Assembly: GCA_002069125.1 (NCBI GenBank)
Contig: MVZN01000031.1
Span: 1 to 33,015, forward strand
Direction of reading: 5' to 3'
DNA length: 33,015 bases
From: Spirochaetes bacterium ADurb.BinA120
GTDB lineage: Bacteria; Spirochaetota; UBA4802; UBA5368
Below the pieces are notes generated by a model. It did no database searches, was not told the origin of the DNA, and saw only the letters and a program-made list of their open reading frames with translations. This document shows positions 7,129 to 16,434 of the stretch, one piece after another. A program made the translations under genes and the position numbers. The number at the start of each line of letters is the position of its first letter. The first letter of the stretch is position 1.

Positions 7129-7659
7129 ATGAAAAAACTCTTCGTGGTGCTCGCCGTGCTCGGCCTGCTCTTTGCGGCGTCTAACGACTCTTTCGCCCGA
7201 GGGATAATAATCAAGGGCGGATATGCGATAATGCAGGACGACTACAAAGACGCTGATTACGACAACAAGCCCTTCTTCGGCCTTTTCTTCGACATGGGCT
7301 CATTTATTTTCAACAGCCTGCGGTTCAAGCCCGGCCTGGACTACATCGCCATGAAATCGGATCAGGGTTATGGAGACTTCGATGTATGGGGAATCCACCT
7401 GGACTGGTACTGGTACTTCCTGGGCAAGGCGGCCATACAGCCCTACCTCGGCTTCGGCGCAGCCCTCAACTACTATGATTTCGATGACCGGCACGCCGAG
7501 GAGGATTCGGACGCCGGTATCGAGGGTTTCGCCGGCGTGCAATTCGATCTATCGGGGCCGTTCGCCCTGCTTCTGGAGGCGCGTTATGTGATGCATGATA
7601 TCGCAAACCGCGACCAGAACATGGTAAAGCTCGGCGTAGGTATTCAGTACAGCTTCTAA
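7129..7659 (+). CDS. Outer-membrane beta-barrel protein (OmpW/Opr-like small barrel)
   Basis: A 176-residue exported protein. It has a typical signal peptide (MKKLFVVLAVLGLLFAASND, cleavage probably near SFA/RG) and then alternating amphipathic strands rich in Tyr, Phe, Gly and Asp (for example DWYWYFLGKAAIQPYLGFGA). It ends in Phe (GVGIQYSF), a typical BAM recognition end for outer-membrane proteins. Length suits an 8-strand barrel. GGAGG at 7116-7120 lies 8 bases before the ATG. It is monocistronic: its own promoter lies upstream and a bidirectional terminator follows. The exact family is uncertain. Confidence 0.85.
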   Translation: MKKLFVVLAVLGLLFAASNDSFARGIIIKGGYAIMQDDYKDADYDNKPFFGLFFDMGSFIFNSLRFKPGLDYIAMKSDQGYGDFDVWGIHLDWYWYFLGKAAIQPYLGFGAALNYYDFDDRHAEEDSDAGIEGFAGVQFDLSGPFALLLEARYVMHDIANRDQNMVKLGVGIQYSF

Positions 7660-7675
7660 TATTTCGAATGTGCGC

Positions 7676-7710
7676 AAAAAAAGGCGCGGAAACAATCCGC
7701 GCCTTTTTTT
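7676..7710. terminator. Bidirectional intrinsic terminator
   Basis: AAAAAAAGGCGCGGA (7676-7690) and TCCGCGCCTTTTTTT (7696-7710) form a perfect 15-bp stem around a 5-nt loop. A-run and T-run give a U-tract in both directions. It separates the converging barrel gene (plus) and pyrE (minus). Confidence 0.92.
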
Positions 7711-7725
7711 GGAGTTGCGCCTCCA

Positions 7726-8292
7726 TCAACCCAGCCGCCGGCGGTCGAAGTCGGAGCGTGAGAAGAGCGGAATGACGCTCACCCCCGTCGCCTCGATCGC
7801 CTCTCGGCCGCCCTCCTCGCGGTCCACCATCACCGCTGCCGCGATGATATCGAGCCCCGCCTCGCGCATGCGCTCTATGGCCGTAATGGTCGACCCCCCG
7901 GTGGTTATCACATCGTCTATAGCCACAACGCGCTTCACGCCGTCGAGCAGGCCCTCGATCCACCTCGCCGTTCCATGCTTTTTGGGCTCCTTGCGCACTA
8001 TGATCGGCCTTATCGACACGCCCTGGCGGTGCGCCTCGAGGCTGGTGGAAAGAGAGATTGGGTCCGCACCAAGCGTAAGCCCGCCGACGGCATCGGGCCT
8101 TAGATTTCGAATCGCCTGAAACATAATGCAACCCACAAGCGAAAGCCCCTCCGGGTCCAGGGTGGCCGCTTTGCAGTCGAAGTAATACGGGCTCTGACGC
8201 CCTGAGACCAGCGTAAACGGCGGGTTGTCCCGATAAATGAAGGACTTGTTATAGAGGATTTCAAACAGCCTGTCGCGTTCGGTATGATGCAT
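7726..8292 (-). CDS. pyrE: Orotate phosphoribosyltransferase
   Basis: Transfers phosphoribose from PRPP to orotate, giving orotidine 5'-monophosphate in pyrimidine synthesis; cytoplasmic. The 188-residue length is normal. Visible motifs are the N-terminal substrate segment SGRQSPYYFDCK (30-41), the flexible catalytic loop RKEPKKHG (100-107) and the PRPP-binding motif VVAIDDVITTGGST (122-135). ATG at 8292 has AAGGAGAG just upstream. The frame stays open a further 126 codons upstream, but that extension is translated repeat DNA (recurring WGQS from the GGGGTCAGAGC word) and is not part of the enzyme. No other pyr gene is present. Confidence 0.95.
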   Translation of the reverse strand: MHHTERDRLFEILYNKSFIYRDNPPFTLVSGRQSPYYFDCKAATLDPEGLSLVGCIMFQAIRNLRPDAVGGLTLGADPISLSTSLEAHRQGVSIRPIIVRKEPKKHGTARWIEGLLDGVKRVVAIDDVITTGGSTITAIERMREAGLDIIAAAVMVDREEGGREAIEATGVSVIPLFSRSDFDRRRLG

Positions 8293-8492: not shown

Positions 8493-8696
8493 TGCTCTGA
8501 CCCTTTGTCCAGCGGAAGTCCACTCTTTTTAAGGTGCTCTGACCCCATGATTCAAGCCGTTTTTGAAGTTTGCTCTGACCCCATGTTTGCTGAAGGCTCG
8601 ACTTTTTTTCAAGTGCTCTGACCCCAATTCCTGGAACCTCGCAATCCTTTGCTCTGACCCCATGACTCAAGCCGTTTTTGATATTTGCTCTGACCC
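8493..8696 (-). repeat. Array of six GGGGTCAGAGCA repeats between rarA and pyrE
   Basis: On the plus strand the word TGCTCTGACCC(C) starts at 8493, 8535, 8571, 8614, 8650 and 8686, a period of 42, 36, 43, 36 and 36 bp. Four copies are exact 12-mers; the outer two lack the last C. Intervening segments are not random. Those at 8547-8570 and 8662-8685 are almost identical (three or so mismatches), and those at about 8504-8534 and 8583-8613 are also recognisably related, so larger units were duplicated. The array sits in the pyrE leader and just past the rarA stop. The rest of 8293-8492 has no gene. Confidence 0.9.
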
Positions 8697-8709
8697 TATT
8701 GTGGTGAGT

Positions 8710-9993
8710 TCATTTCCTGAAACGCTCGGGCCAAAGGCGCGCAAGCCGCTCGGCGATGGCCTTTTCGCTGCCCTGGGCCGAGGGCCTATAATAGCTCTCA
8801 TCAGCCAGTTTTTCGGGAAGGTAGCGCTCCTGGACGAAATGGTCCTCGAAATCGTGAGGATAGCGGTATTCTCTACCATATCCCATTTTACTCATAAGCT
8901 TTGTAGGCGCGTTTCGCAGGTGAAGCGGTATCTCTATGGAAAAATCGTCGGCTCGCTCCCTGGCCTTCTTTAAGGCCATGTACGATGCGTTGCTCTTGGG
9001 CGACGACGCCAGGAAGGTCGCGCATTGGGCCAGAATGATTTCGGCCTCGGGTGGCCCTATATTCTGTGCGGCGGTCATGGCCGCAACCGCTATAGGCAGG
9101 GCCTGGGGCGAGGCGTTTCCCACATCCTCGGAGGCGAATATAACCATGCGTCGGGCTATAAACACGGGGTCCTCGCCGGCAACGAGCATTCTTGCCAGGT
9201 AATAGACGGCCGCGTCCGGGTCGGAGCCCCTCATGGACTTGATAAAGGCGGAGATCGTATCGTAATGCCGGTCGCCGGCGCGGTCATAGTATGCCACGAC
9301 GCCCCTAAGCGCCTCTGCGATCACCCGGTCGTCGATGGGGCCATCCCCGGCCAGAAGGGCCGCCTGTTCGAGCACGTTCAGCATGCGGCGGGCGTCGCCC
9401 TGGGCCAGGGCGACCAGTTTCTCCTTTTCGGGGGCTTCCAGTCGCGCCCCCGATGCCGCGAGCACCGCATCGTCTTCGAGCGCGGTATCGAGAATCTTCA
9501 TCAGATCTTTTTCGGAAAGCGGCTTCAGGCGAACCACCCTGCATCGTGAGAGGAGCGGCGCGATAACCTGGAAGGAGGGGTTCTCCGTGGTTGCTCCTAT
9601 AAGTACGATCTCTCCGGACTCGACCGCGCCGAGGACCGCGTCCTGCTGGGCTTTGTTGAAACGGTGGATTTCGTCGAGGAAGAGAATGGTCTGGGTTTCG
9701 TTTTTACGGTTTTCCTTTCCGCGCTCGATCACCTTGCGCACCTCCGGTACGCCCGACGACACGGCGCTTAGAAAATGCGCCTCCACGCCGCAATGGCCGG
9801 CGATTAGCCGGGCCAGTGTCGTCTTTCCGCATCCAGGCTCGCCCCACAACAGCATGGAGAATATGGTCTTTTTGTCGATTACCGAGCGCAGAATCCTGCC
9901 GGGCCCAAGGAGGTGCTCCTGGCCGACAAATGCCTCCAGCGTTCTCGGACGGCGGCGTTCGGCCAGCGGGCGTATGTCTCTGTAGTTTTCCAT
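8710..9993 (-). CDS. rarA: Replication-associated recombination protein A (RarA/MgsA AAA+ ATPase)
   Basis: A clamp-loader-like AAA+ ATPase acting at stalled replication forks, related to Mgs1/WRNIP1. The protein has 427 residues, with Walker A GEPGCGKT (51-58), Walker B ILFLDEIH (103-110), a sensor region with ATTENPSF and an arginine-finger region SRCRVVRL. It continues into the family's C-terminal tetramerisation part (for example EDVGNASPQALPIAVAAM and the KMGYGREYRYPHDFE stretch). The start at 9993 is chosen because the conserved N-terminus reads MENYRDIRPLAERRRP; no strong Shine-Dalgarno is seen. The frame is open upstream to 10116, where it runs through a GGGGTCAGAGCA repeat, so that extension is rejected. 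Confidence 0.95.
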   Translation of the reverse strand: MENYRDIRPLAERRRPRTLEAFVGQEHLLGPGRILRSVIDKKTIFSMLLWGEPGCGKTTLARLIAGHCGVEAHFLSAVSSGVPEVRKVIERGKENRKNETQTILFLDEIHRFNKAQQDAVLGAVESGEIVLIGATTENPSFQVIAPLLSRCRVVRLKPLSEKDLMKILDTALEDDAVLAASGARLEAPEKEKLVALAQGDARRMLNVLEQAALLAGDGPIDDRVIAEALRGVVAYYDRAGDRHYDTISAFIKSMRGSDPDAAVYYLARMLVAGEDPVFIARRMVIFASEDVGNASPQALPIAVAAMTAAQNIGPPEAEIILAQCATFLASSPKSNASYMALKKARERADDFSIEIPLHLRNAPTKLMSKMGYGREYRYPHDFEDHFVQERYLPEKLADESYYRPSAQGSEKAIAERLARLWPERFRK

Positions 9994-10102
9994 AATATTG
10001 TATCGTCTTATCTGAGCGAACCTGTGCGCCGGTCCGGTCAGCATCGGCCTTCCTAACAGGAAGAGGCCGGTGGATTGGGACGGGACGTTCTCTGACGAGA
10101 GG

Positions 10103-10238
10103 TGCTCTGACCCCATTTCAGAATGACTGCAATGAATTTCCCGCTATTTAAACGCGAAATGCCTTCCTTTCGGTCTGTTTTCGTATTTATATAGGTCTGC
10201 ACCTGATTCCCGGCCCGCTGCAAGGGTGCTCTGACCCC
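10103..10238 (-). repeat. Two GGGGTCAGAGCA repeats upstream of rarA
   Basis: TGCTCTGACCCC occurs exactly on the plus strand at 10103-10114 and 10227-10238, 124 bp apart. They lie in the 341-bp gap between rpsU and rarA. In the sense of both flanking minus-strand genes they read GGGGTCAGAGCA. Between them is AT-richer sequence without a gene. Confidence 0.9.
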
Positions 10239-10284
10239 TTTTCCGGGGGTATGGCTTCATCAGCCGATAGCATTGCGCAGGCAT

Positions 10285-10316
10285 AAAAAAATCCGGCGTG
10301 AACCGGATTTTTTTTT
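10285..10316 (-). terminator. Intrinsic terminator after rpsU
   Basis: AAATCCGG (10289-10296) pairs with CCGGATTT (10303-10310) around a 6-nt loop. The run of A to its left (from 10285) gives a U-tract for the minus-strand rpsU transcript, and a T-run to 10316 makes it potentially bidirectional. It lies about 20 bases past the rpsU stop. Confidence 0.85.
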
Positions 10317-10334
10317 GGTACTTCAGCCCCGGGA

Positions 10335-10598
10335 TTACTCCTCGTCGGTGCGCTCTTTCGTTACAACGCGGACATTAACGAAACGCCGCCCCCGGCTCTG
10401 AGCCGCGAACCGCCTGATCTTCTTGATTCGGCGCCTTTCGGCCTCTTCCTTCTTGCGTTTTTTTTCCTCGCTGGGCTTCTCGTAATACCTGCGGCGCTTG
10501 AGCTCTTTGAAAACGCCTTCGAAGGCCATCTTCTTTTTAAGATTTTTAAAGGCTTTTTCGATATCGCCGTTCACTTCAACTTCAATAGGGCTGGGCAT
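10335..10598 (-). CDS. rpsU: Small ribosomal subunit protein bS21
   Basis: Basic 87-residue protein of the 30S subunit. The core EVEVNGDIEKAFKNLKKKMA and the following GVFKELKRRRYYEKPSEEKK segment match the bS21 family. The C-terminus is about 15-20 residues longer than the usual ~60-70-residue protein and ends in an acidic RTDEE tail. ATG at 10598 gives the normal start (MPSPIEVEV); a TTG 7 codons earlier is also in frame. It is a single-gene unit with a promoter upstream and an intrinsic terminator downstream. Confidence 0.93.
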   Translation of the reverse strand: MPSPIEVEVNGDIEKAFKNLKKKMAFEGVFKELKRRRYYEKPSEEKKRKKEEAERRRIKKIRRFAAQSRGRRFVNVRVVTKERTDEE

Positions 10599-10634
10599 CT
10601 GCTTCTCACATCCTTTCAAGTGTAATTTCAGGCG

Positions 10635-10663
10635 ACTCTATTGACGCAGTCGTATTTTGTCAA
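10635..10663 (-). promoter_or_regulatory. rpsU: Probable rpsU promoter
   Basis: On the minus strand TTGACA (10663-10658) is followed after exactly 17 bases by TAGAGT (10640-10635). The consensus -35 and acceptable -10 lie about 37 bases before the rpsU ATG. Confidence 0.55.
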
Positions 10664-10760
10664 TAAAAATAAGGGTCGTCGCCAAACCCCGAGGGATGAT
10701 CGATATCTTCACCGTCGCCGGGGATGGAGACATGGGGCTCCCTCCCAGATCCACAACAAG

Positions 10761-10812
10761 TCCGATATAAGACGGCGCGCCTCGACTTAGATATGCGCGC
10801 CGTCCTATCGGA
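10761..10812. other. Long two-part hairpin downstream of the YtfJ-like gene
   Basis: TCCGATA (10761-10767) and GACGGCGCGC (10771-10780) pair with GCGCGCCGTC (10795-10804) and TATCGGA (10806-10812). That makes 17 bp of stem with a small internal bulge and a 14-nt loop. It lies just past the stop of the minus-strand YtfJ-like gene. There is no U-tract, so it may be a 3'-end stabilising structure, a Rho-type end or an extragenic palindrome. Confidence 0.6.
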
Positions 10813-10830
10813 ACGAATGACAACGAGGTT

Positions 10831-11367
10831 CTATTTGCCGGCTATAAGCGATTCCACCAGCCCCACTATCTTGGCGATTTCCGCGGCATCCGCAGGGGCG
10901 TTTTTCCTGAAATACTTGATGTATTTCACCTTGCGGTCCTTCCCGATGACCATGCAAACCGACGCGTCATTACAGTTGGCGAGGCCCCAGGCGTTTTTGA
11001 GCGAGTAATCGGGGTCGGTCAGTATCTTGGTGTTGTATTTCTGCTCTTTGCCCTTGATGACCTTGCGGATGATAAAATTCGGCGCCTTCGAGTCTTTCAA
11101 GTTTGCGATCCCCTGGCCGCGATATTGGGCCTCGGGGAACTTTTTGGCCTTGAGCGCGTCGGATATGGGGTCGCTGAGATCGGCGGCGTCCGCATCGTTA
11201 TAGAAAATGGTCAATACCTTAACTCCGAGATCGGGAACCTGTGCCGGATTATCGGCGGCATCGCGAATCGTCACGTTCGATACCGTGTCACCGACATTGG
11301 CGGCGTCGAGCTGCCCGCCAAAAATCGCCAGGCAGAGTACAAGACCCAAAACCGCGACTTTTTTCAT
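10831..11367 (-). CDS. YtfJ-like periplasmic thioredoxin-fold protein
   Basis: A 178-residue exported protein. The signal peptide (MKKVAVLGLVLCLAIFGGQL, cleavage near DA/AN) is followed by a thioredoxin-like alpha/beta domain. Its layout, with the VKVLTIFYND strand, the ALKAKKFPEAQYRGQGIANL stretch, the DPDYSLKNAWGL segment and VMVIGKDRKVKYIKYF-like end, resembles the YtfJ family. No CxxC redox motif is present; two Cys sit close together in LANCNDASVC. The role of this family is unknown. The start at 11367 follows AAGAGGGGG. It is a lone gene divergent from the DUF2147 gene. Confidence 0.75.
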   Translation of the reverse strand: MKKVAVLGLVLCLAIFGGQLDAANVGDTVSNVTIRDAADNPAQVPDLGVKVLTIFYNDADAADLSDPISDALKAKKFPEAQYRGQGIANLKDSKAPNFIIRKVIKGKEQKYNTKILTDPDYSLKNAWGLANCNDASVCMVIGKDRKVKYIKYFRKNAPADAAEIAKIVGLVESLIAGK

Positions 11368-11787
11368 GGATAAAACCCCCTCTTGAATAGTGTTGATTAT
11401 ACGGACTTTTTATTCCGTGCTTGCGATACAGGCTAAACGTATCCGGCGGGCTTGTCAACACATTATAATTCGCGTTGAAATGCCGCCGCTCCCACATCGA
11501 CATTGCCGATTGCCGTATGCGCGCCATTTCAGTGCCGGTAAGATACCCGTCCCTATGGAACAGTCCTATTTGCATGCCATAAAGATAGGCTATGTCGGTT
11601 TATTATGCTTGACCCGGGCCCCGCACAGGGTATATGCTCATTTGCATGGGCAGTCCGGTATGCTTTGGATAATTCGTAGCGTTTATTCTGTATGCCTACT
11701 CTTTCTGGAAATGTCCGGGGATGGCTTCGGGATACCCCACGATTTATTCATGGTATATCATTTATCCATCAAGGAGGATTCACAGAT
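11368..11787. other. Divergent intergenic region
   Basis: The 420-bp gap separates the minus-strand YtfJ-like gene and the plus-strand DUF2147 gene, so it must hold two promoters. Short frames here show no recognisable protein features. I see no repeat copy, RNA gene or confident promoter pair. Confidence 0.4.
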
Positions 11788-12246
11788 ATGACAGGCGCCA
11801 GAAGAACCGTTTTTACCCTCATCATGCTCGCGGCGTTCGCTTTCGTTTCGGCCGGCTTGTTCGCGCAAACCTCACCGGTGGGAACCTGGAAGACCATCGA
11901 CGACGTTACCAAGGAACCCAAGTCCTTCCTCGAAATTACGGAAAAGGACGGCAAGCTGTTCGGCAAGATCGTCAAACTCATCAAGAAACCCGGCGAAGAC
12001 CCCAATCCCCTCTGCACCAAGTGCACGGGCGCCAACAAGGACAAACCGATCCTCGGCATGACCATCATGTGGGGACTCTCTAAGGATGGTGATTCTTATT
12101 CCGGTGGAAAGATCATGGACCCCGACAACGGCAAGACCTACAGCTGCAAGATCAAGGTCATCGACGGCGGCAAGCGTCTCGAGGTGCGCGGATTCATCGG
12201 CATTTCGCTGGTGGGCCGCTCGCAGTACTGGCTTAAAGGCGATTAG
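11788..12246 (+). CDS. DUF2147 exported protein
   Basis: A 152-residue secreted protein. The hydrophobic signal peptide (about residues 8-24) is probably cleaved after LFA near residue 26. The mature part begins SPVGTWKTIDD and carries the DUF2147 hallmarks: a GxWKT-type start, a CTKC pair (76-79), then KDKPILGM and DPDNGKTYSCK segments, ending RSQYWLKG. Members are small beta-rich, lipocalin-like proteins, often linked to short-chain or lipid metabolism, but without a proven function. AAGGAGG at 11771-11777 supports the ATG at 11788. A strong hairpin follows the stop. Confidence 0.85.
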   Translation: MTGARRTVFTLIMLAAFAFVSAGLFAQTSPVGTWKTIDDVTKEPKSFLEITEKDGKLFGKIVKLIKKPGEDPNPLCTKCTGANKDKPILGMTIMWGLSKDGDSYSGGKIMDPDNGKTYSCKIKVIDGGKRLEVRGFIGISLVGRSQYWLKGD

Positions 12247-12255
12247 TTCGGTATT

Positions 12256-12285
12256 CGATGGGGACCGTACGGGCGGTCCCCATCG
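12256..12285 (+). terminator. Perfect 12-bp hairpin after the DUF2147 gene
   Basis: CGATGGGGACCG (12256-12267) pairs with CGGTCCCCATCG (12274-12285) around a 6-nt loop, 9 bases past the stop. There is no immediate T-run, so it is a likely but unusual terminator. Confidence 0.6.
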
Positions 12286-12441
12286 TCCCCGTCGCATGTA
12301 AAAAAATCCCGTATTTCACAGGCCAAAACATCACCCGCAAGCCGTTACATAAAAATCGATTGAATTCCCATACGCCTGCCTTATGACGAGGTACATGTTC
12401 TCTAAACCCGCTCTGACACCCTCATCCATGGGAGGATACGC

Positions 12442-13602
12442 GTGAACTATCTTATTATCGGTAACGGAGTCGCGGGTAGCGAAGCGGCACTCGCCATTCG
12501 CAAATCGGACCCAGAAGGCGCCATCACCATCCTTACGTCTTCACCGTACCCATACTATTACCGCCCGGGCGTCATCGAATACCTGGCAAACGGCATCACG
12601 CGCGAAAGACTTTTCGTTTACAAGCCCGACTTTTACGAGAAGAACCGCATCACTGCACTTCTCGCCACGACCGCCGAAAGAATCCTGCCGGATAATAAGA
12701 TCGTGGTGGATCATGGCGGACGCGAGCATTCATACGACAGGCTGCTCCTGGCAACCGGAGCCGACCCGTTTCTGCCGTCGATAGACGGGGCCGACCTTCC
12801 AGGCGTGTTTACCCTGCGCGATATCGAAGACGCGGACAGGCTGCGCGATTTCGCCTCGGGCTCCAAACGCGCCGTTGTGGTGGGCGGAGGCCTGCTCGGA
12901 CTGGAATCGGCCCACAGCCTCGCCAGGATCGGCCTCGAGGTATGCGTAGTCGAAACATGCGGAAGGCTCCTCCCCCGCCAGCTCGACAACGACGGCGCGC
13001 GCACCCTCCAGCGCCTTTTGGAGGGGAAAGGGCTCTCGTTCGCGCTGGAGGATGGGGTCAGAGCAATCGAGGGCGATGGTTCGGTCGAACTGGTCCATCT
13101 CAAGTCGGGAAGCAGCCGGAAGACGGACCTGGTCCTTGTTTCGGCGGGCATCCGCGGCCGCTCCTCTCTTGCCCGCGATGCCGGAATTGCCGTCAAAAAC
13201 GGCATCCTTGTCGATGACAATATGAAGACTTCCGTCGCGGACATCTACGCCGCAGGCGACCCGATCGAACACAGAAGCAGGCTCTACGGGATCTGGCCGG
13301 CTGCGAGGGAACAGGGGCGCGTGGCCGGGCTTAACATGGCCGGTGTGCCCACTATATACAATCCGACACTCATGGCCGCGACGCTCAAGGTTACGGGAAT
13401 CGACCTGTATTCCGCAGGCAATTTCGACGCCTCCGGCTGCGATGTAATGGTCTCGTCAAGCGATAACGGATACCGGAAGTTGCTTGTCGACTCGGGCCTG
13501 GCGATAGGCGCAATAGCCCTGGGCGACCACGAGGCCGTCAAGGCGGCGCAGCGTGTGATGGACGGCAGGGGCGAGCTTTCGGAGTTCAGCAGATTTTTTT
13601 GA
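12442..13602 (+). CDS. FAD/NAD(P)H-dependent oxidoreductase (rubredoxin-reductase / NirB-N type)
   Basis: A 386-residue flavoprotein of the pyridine nucleotide-disulfide oxidoreductase class II fold. It has an N-terminal FAD Rossmann motif GNGVAG (7-12), LLLATGADP (101-109), a second dinucleotide motif VVVGGGLLG (145-153) and a FAD-closing motif DIYAAGDP (267-274). No redox-active CxxC is visible, so it probably passes electrons to a separate acceptor such as rubredoxin. The start is GTG at 12442 with GGGAGGA upstream. Codons 205-208 (GVRA) are encoded exactly by GGGGTCAGAGCA, the repeat word that surrounds the nearby transposase. A degenerate copy (GCTCTGACACCC, 12410-12421) lies just before the gene. 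Confidence 0.9.
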   Translation: MNYLIIGNGVAGSEAALAIRKSDPEGAITILTSSPYPYYYRPGVIEYLANGITRERLFVYKPDFYEKNRITALLATTAERILPDNKIVVDHGGREHSYDRLLLATGADPFLPSIDGADLPGVFTLRDIEDADRLRDFASGSKRAVVVGGGLLGLESAHSLARIGLEVCVVETCGRLLPRQLDNDGARTLQRLLEGKGLSFALEDGVRAIEGDGSVELVHLKSGSSRKTDLVLVSAGIRGRSSLARDAGIAVKNGILVDDNMKTSVADIYAAGDPIEHRSRLYGIWPAAREQGRVAGLNMAGVPTIYNPTLMAATLKVTGIDLYSAGNFDASGCDVMVSSSDNGYRKLLVDSGLAIGAIALGDHEAVKAAQRVMDGRGELSEFSRFF

Positions 13603-13655
13603 CGCTGCTGGCCCGTTGACGAAGGTTCAGGGGGCGTATAGGGGGGTCAGTTTAG

Positions 13656-13756
13656 GGGGTCAGAGCAATGAGGAAAAGCCCCGGGGCCGGTAAAAGGTGG
13701 GAGAATTGGGGTCAGAGCAATTATTGCAAAAATTTTAAGGAAATGGGGTCAGAGCA
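13656..13756 (+). repeat. Three GGGGTCAGAGCA repeats upstream of the RAYT gene
   Basis: Exact copies at 13656-13667, 13708-13719 and 13745-13756, in direct orientation (52 and 37 bp apart). A truncated word GGGGGGTCAG lies at 13641-13650. They fill the leader of the transposase gene, ending 63 bases before its ATG. Together with the oppositely oriented copies at 14670 and 14710 they bracket the gene. Confidence 0.92.
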
Positions 13757-13819
13757 AAAAATCTTTTAACTAAACATCCTCCAGATTCGTTTATACATAG
13801 AAAACCAAGGAGGAATCGA

Positions 13820-14410
13820 ATGGCCCGAAATCCACGAATTACCGAAAGAGGCAATACACACCACGTTTTTTCGCGATGTATCGAAAAACGCGACTTGCTC
13901 CTCGACGCCTATTTCGCTGATCTATTGGTCGATGTCATCGCAATGGCGCAGGAAAAATATCAATTTGAGCTGATAGCCTACGAAATTATGGACAACCACT
14001 TTCATTTCGTAATAAAAACCGTGGAGAATGGGCCTTCTATATCGCGCATCATGCAGTATATCAAATCACGTTTTGCGCAGCGCTATAATCTCTTGACCGG
14101 CAGAACCGGGCCATTCTGGAATGAACGATTCAAAGACACGGTAGTGGAAAAGACGGATTGCCCGCAGCATTATCTATTATGGCTTCTCTGGTACCTGGCG
14201 TTCAATCCGGTGCGCAAGAACCTCATTGGCGATCCCCTGAAGTACCGCTATGGCAGCATCAATTGCTATCTTAACCAAAACCACTATAGCAGAGTGAAGA
14301 TAAGCCTGCACGCATATTTCCAGGATCTCGGCCGAACCTTTCAGGAGCGCGTAAAGGCCTTTCTCTGGTACGAAGAGGCTTATCGAAAACGCTGGGCGAT
14401 TCTATTTTAA
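13820..14410 (+). CDS. REP-associated tyrosine transposase (RAYT, Y1/HUH family)
   Basis: A 196-residue single-strand DNA endonuclease-like protein related to IS200/IS605 TnpA and to TnpA-REP. The HUH pair is H60-F-H62 in MDNHFHFVIK. The family segment ISRIMQYIKSRFAQRYN follows, then GPFWNERFKD and the helix WYLAFNPVRKN, in which Y125 is the likely catalytic tyrosine (inference from family alignment by eye). AAGGAGG precedes the ATG at 13820. The gene is AT-richer than its neighbours. It has no IS-type ends; instead it is flanked by GGGGTCAGAGCA words upstream and their inverse downstream, the usual arrangement of a RAYT with its REPs. RAYTs are generally single-copy, vertically kept genes thought to spread REPs. 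Confidence 0.93.
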   Translation: MARNPRITERGNTHHVFSRCIEKRDLLLDAYFADLLVDVIAMAQEKYQFELIAYEIMDNHFHFVIKTVENGPSISRIMQYIKSRFAQRYNLLTGRTGPFWNERFKDTVVEKTDCPQHYLLWLLWYLAFNPVRKNLIGDPLKYRYGSINCYLNQNHYSRVKISLHAYFQDLGRTFQERVKAFLWYEEAYRKRWAILF

Positions 14411-14669
14411 TATACTCTCAACCCGACTTCGTAACATTCCCTCCTCAGCTCCACCAATAACATGCTTGGGCTTTGCAGCCTGAGCTAAAAATCGTTTCTA
14501 ATCTTCCAAAATTTGCTTACAATATGGCGTGTGAGGGCATTGAAGTCGACTAAGCGCTTACTATTCAGCCGCTTACCGTCAAGAGAAGCACGATGGTGAT
14601 AACCGGGAAGGTTAAATGGACACTAGCGGCAACATCCAGTCTGGGGAGACGAAAAGGAGCAAAAAAATT

Positions 14670-14721
14670 TGCTCTGACCCTTAAAAGCAGCCATATGCCC
14701 CCTGAAACTTGCTCTGACCCC
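14670..14721 (-). repeat. Two inverted repeat copies downstream of the RAYT gene
   Basis: TGCTCTGACCC at 14670-14680 and TGCTCTGACCCC at 14710-14721, 40 bp apart and inverted relative to the copies upstream of the transposase. They lie between the converging RAYT and aminotransferase genes. The remainder of 14411-14669 shows no gene or clear structure. Confidence 0.9.
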
Positions 14722-14750
14722 TTTGTTTCCCTGTTTTCCCCGTAACGGCA

Positions 14751-15896
14751 TCACCTCAACTCCTTAAAATATCGCTCCACCCTATCCAGGCCCTCTTTTA
14801 TATTCTCAAGCGAGTTGGCATAACTGAACCTCAAAAAGCCTTCCCCGCCGGTTCCAAAATCGATGCCCGGGGTCACTCCGACCTTGACCGTGTCGACTAT
14901 ACGAAATGCCTCCTTGAAGGAATCATCGAAGATATGGCGGCCATCGGCAAATACGTAGAAAGCGCCTGTGGGCTCCACGTGAATCTTTAAGCCGATTTGC
15001 TTCAAGCGATCGATCATGTAAACCCTGCGCTCATCATAGACCCTGCGCATACGTTCGATATCGTCTTTTGTGTCCCGAAACGCGGACACACAAGCCCACT
15101 GAACGAAACTGTTCGCTGAAATGGCGAAGTTCTGATGAATTCGTTGCATGACTGTGGCAAATTCCTTTGGGAAAATGACGTACCCCAGCCTCCAGCCCGT
15201 CATGGCAAAGAGCTTGGAGAAGCCGTTTATCACAAAAGCTTTGTCGGTGAACTCCAATATGGAGCGGGCCCTTCCCCTGTATACCAATCCATGGTAGATC
15301 TCATCGGAGATGATGTATTGGTCGCCGAACTGCGCGATATCCCGAAGATTTTTGTCGGTCATCACTATGCCGGTAGGGTTGCACGGGGAGTTGATAACGA
15401 TTCCCCTGGTGCGTGGGGTCAGAGCACCCTTAATGGCTTCCGGGCGATACTGGAAACCGTCTTCGGGATGGGTACGCACCAGAATCGGCTCGCCCCCCAC
15501 CGTGCGGATAAAATTAGGATAACAAGCGTAGTGCGGGTTGGAGAGAATGACCTCATCACCGGGCTCGAGGATGGCGAGCATCATGAAGAGAAAGGCCGGC
15601 GATGTGCCGGAGGTCACGAGCACCTGCTCGGGAATTACTCTGACCCCATATTCCACCCAATAGTGCTCGCAGATAGCCTGGCGAAGCTCCATAAGCCCCA
15701 TCGCGTGGGTATAGTGCGTTTTCCCGGAGCGAATCGCCTCGATGGCGGCATTGCGAATGGCCTCCGGCGTCTCGAAATCGGGCTCACCGACCTCGAGATG
15801 GACCACGTTTTCACCGGCCTTTTCGAGTTCCTGGGCCCTCGCCATAACATCCATAACGATAAAGGGTGTAACTTCCTGCGCTTTCTTCGAAATCAT
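14751..15896 (-). CDS. PLP-dependent class I/II aminotransferase
   Basis: A 381-residue fold-type I aminotransferase, cytoplasmic, transferring amino groups between an amino acid (aspartate, alanine or similar) and a 2-oxo acid; the exact substrate is not clear. Visible signatures are LEVGEPDFETP (35-45), the NSPCNPTG motif (169-176), SDEIYHGLVY (197-206) and the Schiff-base lysine K228 in NGFSKLFAMTGWRLGY. The GTGGEGFLRFSYA stretch holds the carboxylate-binding Arg. ATG at 15896 is preceded by GGAG at a 7-base spacing, so the upstream TTG at 15947 is rejected. The exact repeat word lies inside the gene at 15415-15426 (encoding part of GALTP, 157-161), and a one-mismatch copy lies at 15636-15647 (GVRV, 84-87). 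Confidence 0.93.
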   Translation of the reverse strand: MISKKAQEVTPFIVMDVMARAQELEKAGENVVHLEVGEPDFETPEAIRNAAIEAIRSGKTHYTHAMGLMELRQAICEHYWVEYGVRVIPEQVLVTSGTSPAFLFMMLAILEPGDEVILSNPHYACYPNFIRTVGGEPILVRTHPEDGFQYRPEAIKGALTPRTRGIVINSPCNPTGIVMTDKNLRDIAQFGDQYIISDEIYHGLVYRGRARSILEFTDKAFVINGFSKLFAMTGWRLGYVIFPKEFATVMQRIHQNFAISANSFVQWACVSAFRDTKDDIERMRRVYDERRVYMIDRLKQIGLKIHVEPTGAFYVFADGRHIFDDSFKEAFRIVDTVKVGVTPGIDFGTGGEGFLRFSYANSLENIKEGLDRVERYFKELR

Positions 15897-16169
15897 GACA
15901 GTCTCCGCCTCATCAATAGCCCCGTGCTCCGGGAATGCCACTGACAAACAATTCTCTTAATATTGCTTACCAATAAGATTTATAATTCCATTTTTCTGGT
16001 ATTTCTTGGCCGCCTCAAGATAAAATCGAAAAAAATGGGGGTGATGACGACCTTCCGCCCGTAACGAGTCAGAGTTTGAGAGAGAGCATATTTTCCGGTA
16101 TGAGCAGCTCCGCCTGCCAGCCATATAATAAAGACAAGGCCCCATCGCCCTACTCTTTACAAATTATGC

Positions 16170-16434
16170 TGCTCTGACCCCTTTTAACCAATCGCCCACC
16201 AGAAATCTGCTCTGACCCCAATATTTCGATCGCCAACCGGCAGTATGCTCTGACCCCCTATCCCGCATTCCAGAACCACCATTCCGCTTTTCTAATGCTC
16301 TGACCCTAATTTCTCCACCCCGCCAGCTACAAGTCGCTCTGAACCCATTTAGAACCCAATTTAACCACTCTGCTACAAATATTGCTCTGACCCTTACAAG
16401 CGGCCCAGGCCTCGAAATAACCTGCTCTGACCCC
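16170..16434 (-). repeat. Array of seven GGGGTCAGAGCA-type repeats
   Basis: Plus-strand TGCTCTGACCC(C) starts at 16170, 16208, 16246, 16296, 16383 and 16423, with a degenerate copy (CGCTCTGAACCC) at about 16335. Spacing is 38-50 bp. The segment before the word, read on the minus strand, is weakly conserved (a TGGTGGGCGAT-like element in several units), so the full repeat may be 30-35 bp with a degenerate half. The array fills the gap between the flippase-like gene and the aminotransferase. Positions 15897-16169 hold no supported gene, only a weak 62-codon frame. Confidence 0.9.

Follow-up and report, generated by a model that had tools for sequence, protein, structure and literature searches.

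The window, i.e., the whole stretch of DNA analysed here (33,015 nt, hereafter 33 kb), carries a gene for a transposase of HUH-Y1 type, P0001, surrounded by copies of a 12-bp word (Table 1). P0001 matches the Pfam family Y1_Tnp (1.1e-10) and the NCBIfam model REP_Tyr_transpos (8e-21; with 74 bits just below the cut-off of 80). Both histidines of its HUH motif (H60, H62) as well as N129 of the catalytic Tyr motif are invariant in 30 relatives. A PDB search with the sequence gave no match, while the AlphaFold2 model (mean pLDDT 93) finds the RAYT structure 4er8 as best PDB match, followed by IS200/IS605 transposases. No HTH match is observed in P0001 for E-values up to 1, unlike the Sporomusa homologue, which carries Bac_DnaA_C, and no tnpB was recognised beside the gene.

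An earlier note on this DNA had claimed that the word saturates about 8 kb around the RAYT gene, which agrees with our counts. Within 8493-16434, GGGGTCAGAGCA is found 16 times exactly and 6 more times with one mismatch, i.e., 22 copies in total, and the rest of the window holds no match with at most one mismatch. Three of the 22 lie in conserved coding sequence; the remaining 19 are intergenic, the same number as the roughly 19 intergenic copies of the earlier count. The comparison with shuffled sequence, which had been proposed genome-wide as a check, gives 25 matches with at most two mismatches in the window vs. 2.07 expected (100 dinucleotide shuffles, maximum 5); here, the two-mismatch matches at 8190 and 12409 are off the pattern and at chance level. 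Genome-wide (3.5-Mb assembly, 216 contigs), there are 19 exact copies, namely 16 in the window, 2 on contig C44 adjoining a second RAYT and 1 on C81, such that 18/19 are near RAYTs. The reversed word, used as control, has no exact copy in the whole genome. A sister form GGGGTCAGAGCC (one mismatch allowed) forms a cluster on C22 and has copies on C44, C81, C39 and C40. On C22, ten of its copies are clustered within L032:5313-7394, with no RAYT found nearby.

Table 1. Word copies and the transposase gene in the window.
Feature	Position	Strand	Remarks
Array 1, six direct copies between pyrE and rarA	8493, 8535, 8571, 8614, 8650, 8686 (8493..8697)	-	Copy spacing 36-43 bp
Word-spacer-word unit in array 1	8650..8697	-	Duplicate at 8535..8582, ~92%; homology stops at the word edges
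Copy 5' of rarA	10103..10114	-	Overlap with the rarA ORF confined to its 5' extension, at the predicted ATG
Copy 5' of rarA	10227..10238	-	
Coding look-alike in Pyr_redox gene (GVRA)	13054..13065	+	Ungapped, kept in G003 and G006
Three direct copies 5' of RAYT	13656-13667, 13708-13719, 13745-13756	+	Directed at the gene
TIRYT/RAYT-type HUH-Y1 transposase P0001, 196 aa	13820..14410	+	NHFH; Y-L-A-F-N-P
Two copies 3' of RAYT	14670-14681 (AGGGTCAGAGCA), 14710-14721 (exact)	-	Orientation opposite to that of the upstream copies
Coding look-alike in aminotransferase gene (antisense; ALTP)	15415..15426	+	Ungapped; 11/12 letters in G006
Coding look-alike in aminotransferase gene (GVRV), one mismatch	15636..15647	-	Ungapped in relatives
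Array 2, seven direct copies between aminotransferase and LPG-synthase-like genes	16170, 16208, 16246, 16296, 16335, 16383, 16423 (16170..16434)	-	Spacing 38-50 bp; 16335 copy degenerate

The genomes nearest to the source by protein search are Spirochaetes MAGs. These relatives have words at equivalent intergenic sites, yet the spacers between them are non-alignable. Array 1 is syntenic in three relatives, and the pyrE-rarA gap, which spans about 430 bp in the source, amounts to 660-900 bp in three relatives and to about 205 bp in G006, where the copies are degenerate. The word copy at 10103 is kept together with its flanks in G003. The upstream layout of the window's RAYT recurs at locus L019, with words at -171, -114 and -76. 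For the three in-gene copies, we can rule out an insertion, since two relatives have conserved coding sequence at these places that aligns without gaps, and one of the two (G006) is without a RAYT at the place syntenic to the window. That two exact coding look-alikes are located so near the RAYT by chance is unlikely.

Two side observations concern gene borders. At 10103-10116, the letters just before the word form the first ATG of the rarA ORF, and the mechanically assigned rarA start is therefore probably too far upstream. Between two other genes (7675-7711), the sequence CAAAAAAAGGCGCGGA forms a perfect inverted repeat (16 bp, loop of 5 nt) and is probably a terminator.

To describe the repeat itself, 293 distinct copies were gathered by their inner nine letters GGGTCAGAG, such that the resulting logo is informative at the edges only. 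Conservation covers just 12-13 nt, [AG]GGGTCAGAGC[AC], followed by weakly A/T-rich sequence. This rules out that the word is the core of a longer degenerate element, as had been considered in the earlier note. The same note set the word apart from palindromic REPs with a GTAG-type foot, and indeed the word has neither a hairpin nor such a foot. That is, a GT[AG]G foot is absent from the logo, the flanks do not pair, and folding with the 5' flank or with both flanks is near that of shuffled sequence, which excludes palindromic flanks or a hairpin except for a slight folding excess of the word with its 3' flank, possibly caused by nearby inverted words. The claim that the word is non-palindromic is true for the window, where the core, with A at its centre, is an odd palindrome only in degenerate form. 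It fails for sister words of the same family and of a distant homologue. Here, perfect odd palindromes are observed, i.e., TTGCTC-A-GAGCAA at L064/L062 and, on a Rhodospirillum rubrum plasmid, the core GGGGTC-A-GACCCC of AAAAGGGGTCAGACCCC, inverted copies of which flank a homologous transposase (L153:2952 and 3717).

Neighbouring words less than 80 bp apart are mostly direct (76 direct vs. 12 inverted), and within a locus more than 97% of the copy pairs have unrelated flanks. A strict sense-strand rule with respect to neighbouring genes has weak support (37:20, based on a crude gene caller) and is not claimed. An origin of the word from the RVKAF coding motif of RAYTs, hinted at by G040, was rejected as well, given a best match of 4-7/10 letters in 45 RAYTs.

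The word is specific to its RAYT family, varies with it and is densest beside it. Among the 46 genomes of the order that we compared, at least five words are found in 32/35 genomes with a close RAYT vs. 3/11 without (Fisher p = 8e-5, treating genomes as independent of relatedness), and the numbers of RAYT matches and words are correlated (rho 0.66). Equal abundance of the word in relatives without such a RAYT had been named beforehand as an outcome that would speak against the link; most RAYT-less relatives have zero or one copy. Within one genus, G016 (close RAYT) holds 67 words and G017 (no close RAYT) none. The RAYT genomes G029, G039 and G043 contain few GGGG words and have sister words with a common CAGAG core. 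Three genomes have words without a RAYT match (G040, G004, G015). For G040, this is an assembly artefact, since it has contigs that begin inside the 3' end of a RAYT; the assembly of G004 is 73% complete.

The same picture emerges at the level of individual loci. For most relatives of the P0001 gene, the word ranks among the most repeated 9-10-mers of the surrounding DNA; a copy usually precedes the ATG by 70-150 nt, and often one follows the stop after 4-35 nt. Over 22 loci, word density is 5.8/kb within 150 bp of the RAYT and 0.12/kb at a distance of 5-10 kb, with zero reversed words in every distance bin. Mapping the word types on a 58-RAYT tree requires 9 changes vs. 17.8 after shuffling, and none of 200 shuffles is as low. 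G043, G024 and G035 each contain two or three word types, and each type adjoins its own RAYT lineage. Word type hence tracks the RAYT tree and not the host. Word orientation relative to the gene varies between RAYT lineages, so a single strict left/right-end rule does not fit.

Other repeats were seen near related genes. A third Y1_Tnp gene of the source genome (C42:1424-1696, in L037:1-1900) lies amid perfect 28-bp palindromes GAAGGCGCGATTGGCCAATCGCGCCTTC, whose half-sites (8 in the genome) are confined to the first 1.9 kb of C42, some of them inside the open frame. L072 and L073 (from G024 and G023) show a repeated word, GGCGATAGTTCC / GGAACTATCGCC, with 4-6 copies per locus, which is unlike the RAYT word.

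We also find the word at the ends of duplicated modules and at one edge of a RAYT insertion. Segments repeated within a genome end at words 15-30 times more often than expected by chance. In three genomes, homology ends at words in 36-60% of the cases vs. 2% expected, with the bulk of the data from G024; for G003, the count is 0/2. Similarity between RAYT copies is 95-97% in G025 and reaches 98% in G024. Upstream of four RAYT copies of G025 lies one or the other of two shared modules, each of which stops at the next word, and modules are common to separate contigs as well as to the flanks of RAYT copies from different clades. G024 carries an insertion of about 1.35 kb comprising four words and a RAYT, and the syntenic site is empty in each of G023, G022 and G021. 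A word lies exactly at the left edge of this insertion; none is present at the right edge. Taken together, genome association, distance decay, lineage-tracking word type, empty site and homology breakpoints strongly support the link of word and RAYT that the earlier note had proposed.

In the source genome, an apbE-like gene (a label taken from a protein motif, not from a family search) contains two inverted words, and the roughly 65 bp that they enclose are found again, with about 88% identity, in an intergenic region at a distance of 1.25 kb (L032:5996-6060 and 7248-7312). The repeated piece ends at words or within 4 nt of them. The intergenic copy may also be a decayed paralogue.

Judging by these comparisons, the 12-mer is likely the end or recognition sequence of the TIRYT-type transposase encoded at 13820-14410. 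The enzyme would cut single-stranded DNA at the word, with no need for a hairpin, and segments between two words would be released or copied. Freed segments would then rejoin nearby, either at AT-rich sites and other words or right next to them, such that repeated rounds might produce same-direction word arrays with unrelated spacers around the gene. The RAYT gene itself would be one such word-bounded module. If spacer plus word formed a single-stranded intermediate that joined onto a different word, the outcome would be direct arrays in which the spacers are shuffled. Clusters of words without an assembled RAYT (C22 of the source, G015 and the incomplete G004) count against a role as recognition end. 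Going further, the bare 12-nt single-stranded word could act as a Y1 recombination site for a cassette-like shuffling of word-flanked DNA near the enzyme's own gene, pieces of host genes included; we put this forward as a tentative and rather doubtful extension.

The prevalence of direct neighbours and the duplicated word-spacer-word unit of the window, whose copies are about 115 bp apart, would also be in line with arrays that grow by slippage or unequal homologous recombination between the 12-bp direct words, with the RAYT only seeding the first terminal repeats. Such processes may add to the arrays, and some direct-array duplications could be ordinary unequal recombination between words. 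As the general explanation we consider them unlikely, since simple duplication is not expected to leave nearly all copy pairs with unrelated flanks, nor does it account for modules that recur on different contigs and next to RAYT copies from more than one clade.

The odd palindrome of the core, degenerate in the window and perfect in the L064/L062 and Rhodospirillum sister words, resembles an operator, and copies are located upstream of the RAYT and of other genes. The words might hence be retained for gene regulation rather than mobility, with a regulator or the transposase binding them as duplex DNA. This reading is improbable in our view, since arrays of 6-7 words, word-ended module duplications, the empty site and local clustering are left unexplained and word type is set by the transposase rather than by the host. 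A host-wide signal, e.g., a DNA-uptake or Chi-like word that clusters here by chance, would equally be short, conserved and locally orientation-biased. It is strongly disfavoured, to the point of being negligible, with no more than 19 exact copies across the 3.5-Mb genome (all but one near RAYTs), the word missing from most RAYT-less genomes, and sister words within one genome going with the RAYT lineages.

For the putative recognition sequence, the relatives provide natural enzyme-word pairs that diverged in step within single genomes. Together with their empty sites and the copies that multiplied recently, this makes recognition, cutting and spread each directly testable. How repeats are spread by RAYT-like transposases is an open question (PMC8266576), on which an apparent substrate of 12 nt without hairpin has a bearing.

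Compared to RAYT/TnpAREP systems (groups 2 and 3; PMC8266576), P0001 shares the 4er8 fold and the catalytic motifs, each transposase lineage has one repeat type, and the local concentration of repeats resembles that of the Marinomonas REPtrons Ma/Mb (PMC8266576). Differences are the missing GTAG foot and hairpin, direct arrays instead of inverted pairs, and the intragenomic multi-copy RAYTs held by relatives of the source. REPINs are inverted REP pairs, whereas close neighbours are mostly direct here (76:12). The likeness to REPINs (PMC3116915) consists in short repeats ascribed to a RAYT. With IS200/IS605 elements (TnpA-IS200), the system has Y1 chemistry and fold as well as an IS-like multi-copy behaviour (in G024/G025) in common, but it shows Y---NP instead of Y---Q and no subterminal hairpin.

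The closest likeness in motif is to TIRYTs, i.e., RAYT-like genes whose terminal inverted repeats have the motif GGGGWSAS in common (Di Nocera et al. 2013, PMC3733652). GGGGTCAG fits this motif, so the suggestion of a wholly new class of RAYT substrate does not stand. The exact word string gave no relevant match among the papers listed in a literature search. Further shared features of TIRYTs/TIRtrons are an HUH-Y1 transposase with Y---NP (here YLAFNP), words inverted around the gene (in the window, + upstream and - downstream) and moderately abundant, partly clustered copies. Inverted word flanks are also found in many RAYT relatives, and inverted GGGGTCAG words in distant Rhodospirillum and Sporomusa homologues. 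Most TIRYTs belong to subclass 2.1, which has a C-terminal HTH and for which no REP-like repeats were found (Quentin et al. 2018, PMC6006769); for P0001, in contrast to TnpAY1 of this subclass, no DnaA_C/HTH_23/28 C-terminal HTH is found and the length is 196 aa vs. a median of 238. Moreover, the repeat is cut down to 12-13 nt here and occurs in tens of copies, which form direct arrays locally; sister words are specific to RAYT lineages, and modules are bounded by words. We found no description of such local arrays of bare words in direct orientation, of words that differ between lineages or of modules bounded by them in the RAYT/TIRYT literature compared. The system departs from REPs, REPINs and IS200/IS605 elements, is without the HTH of subclass 2.1, and is TIRYT-type by motif and enzyme class.
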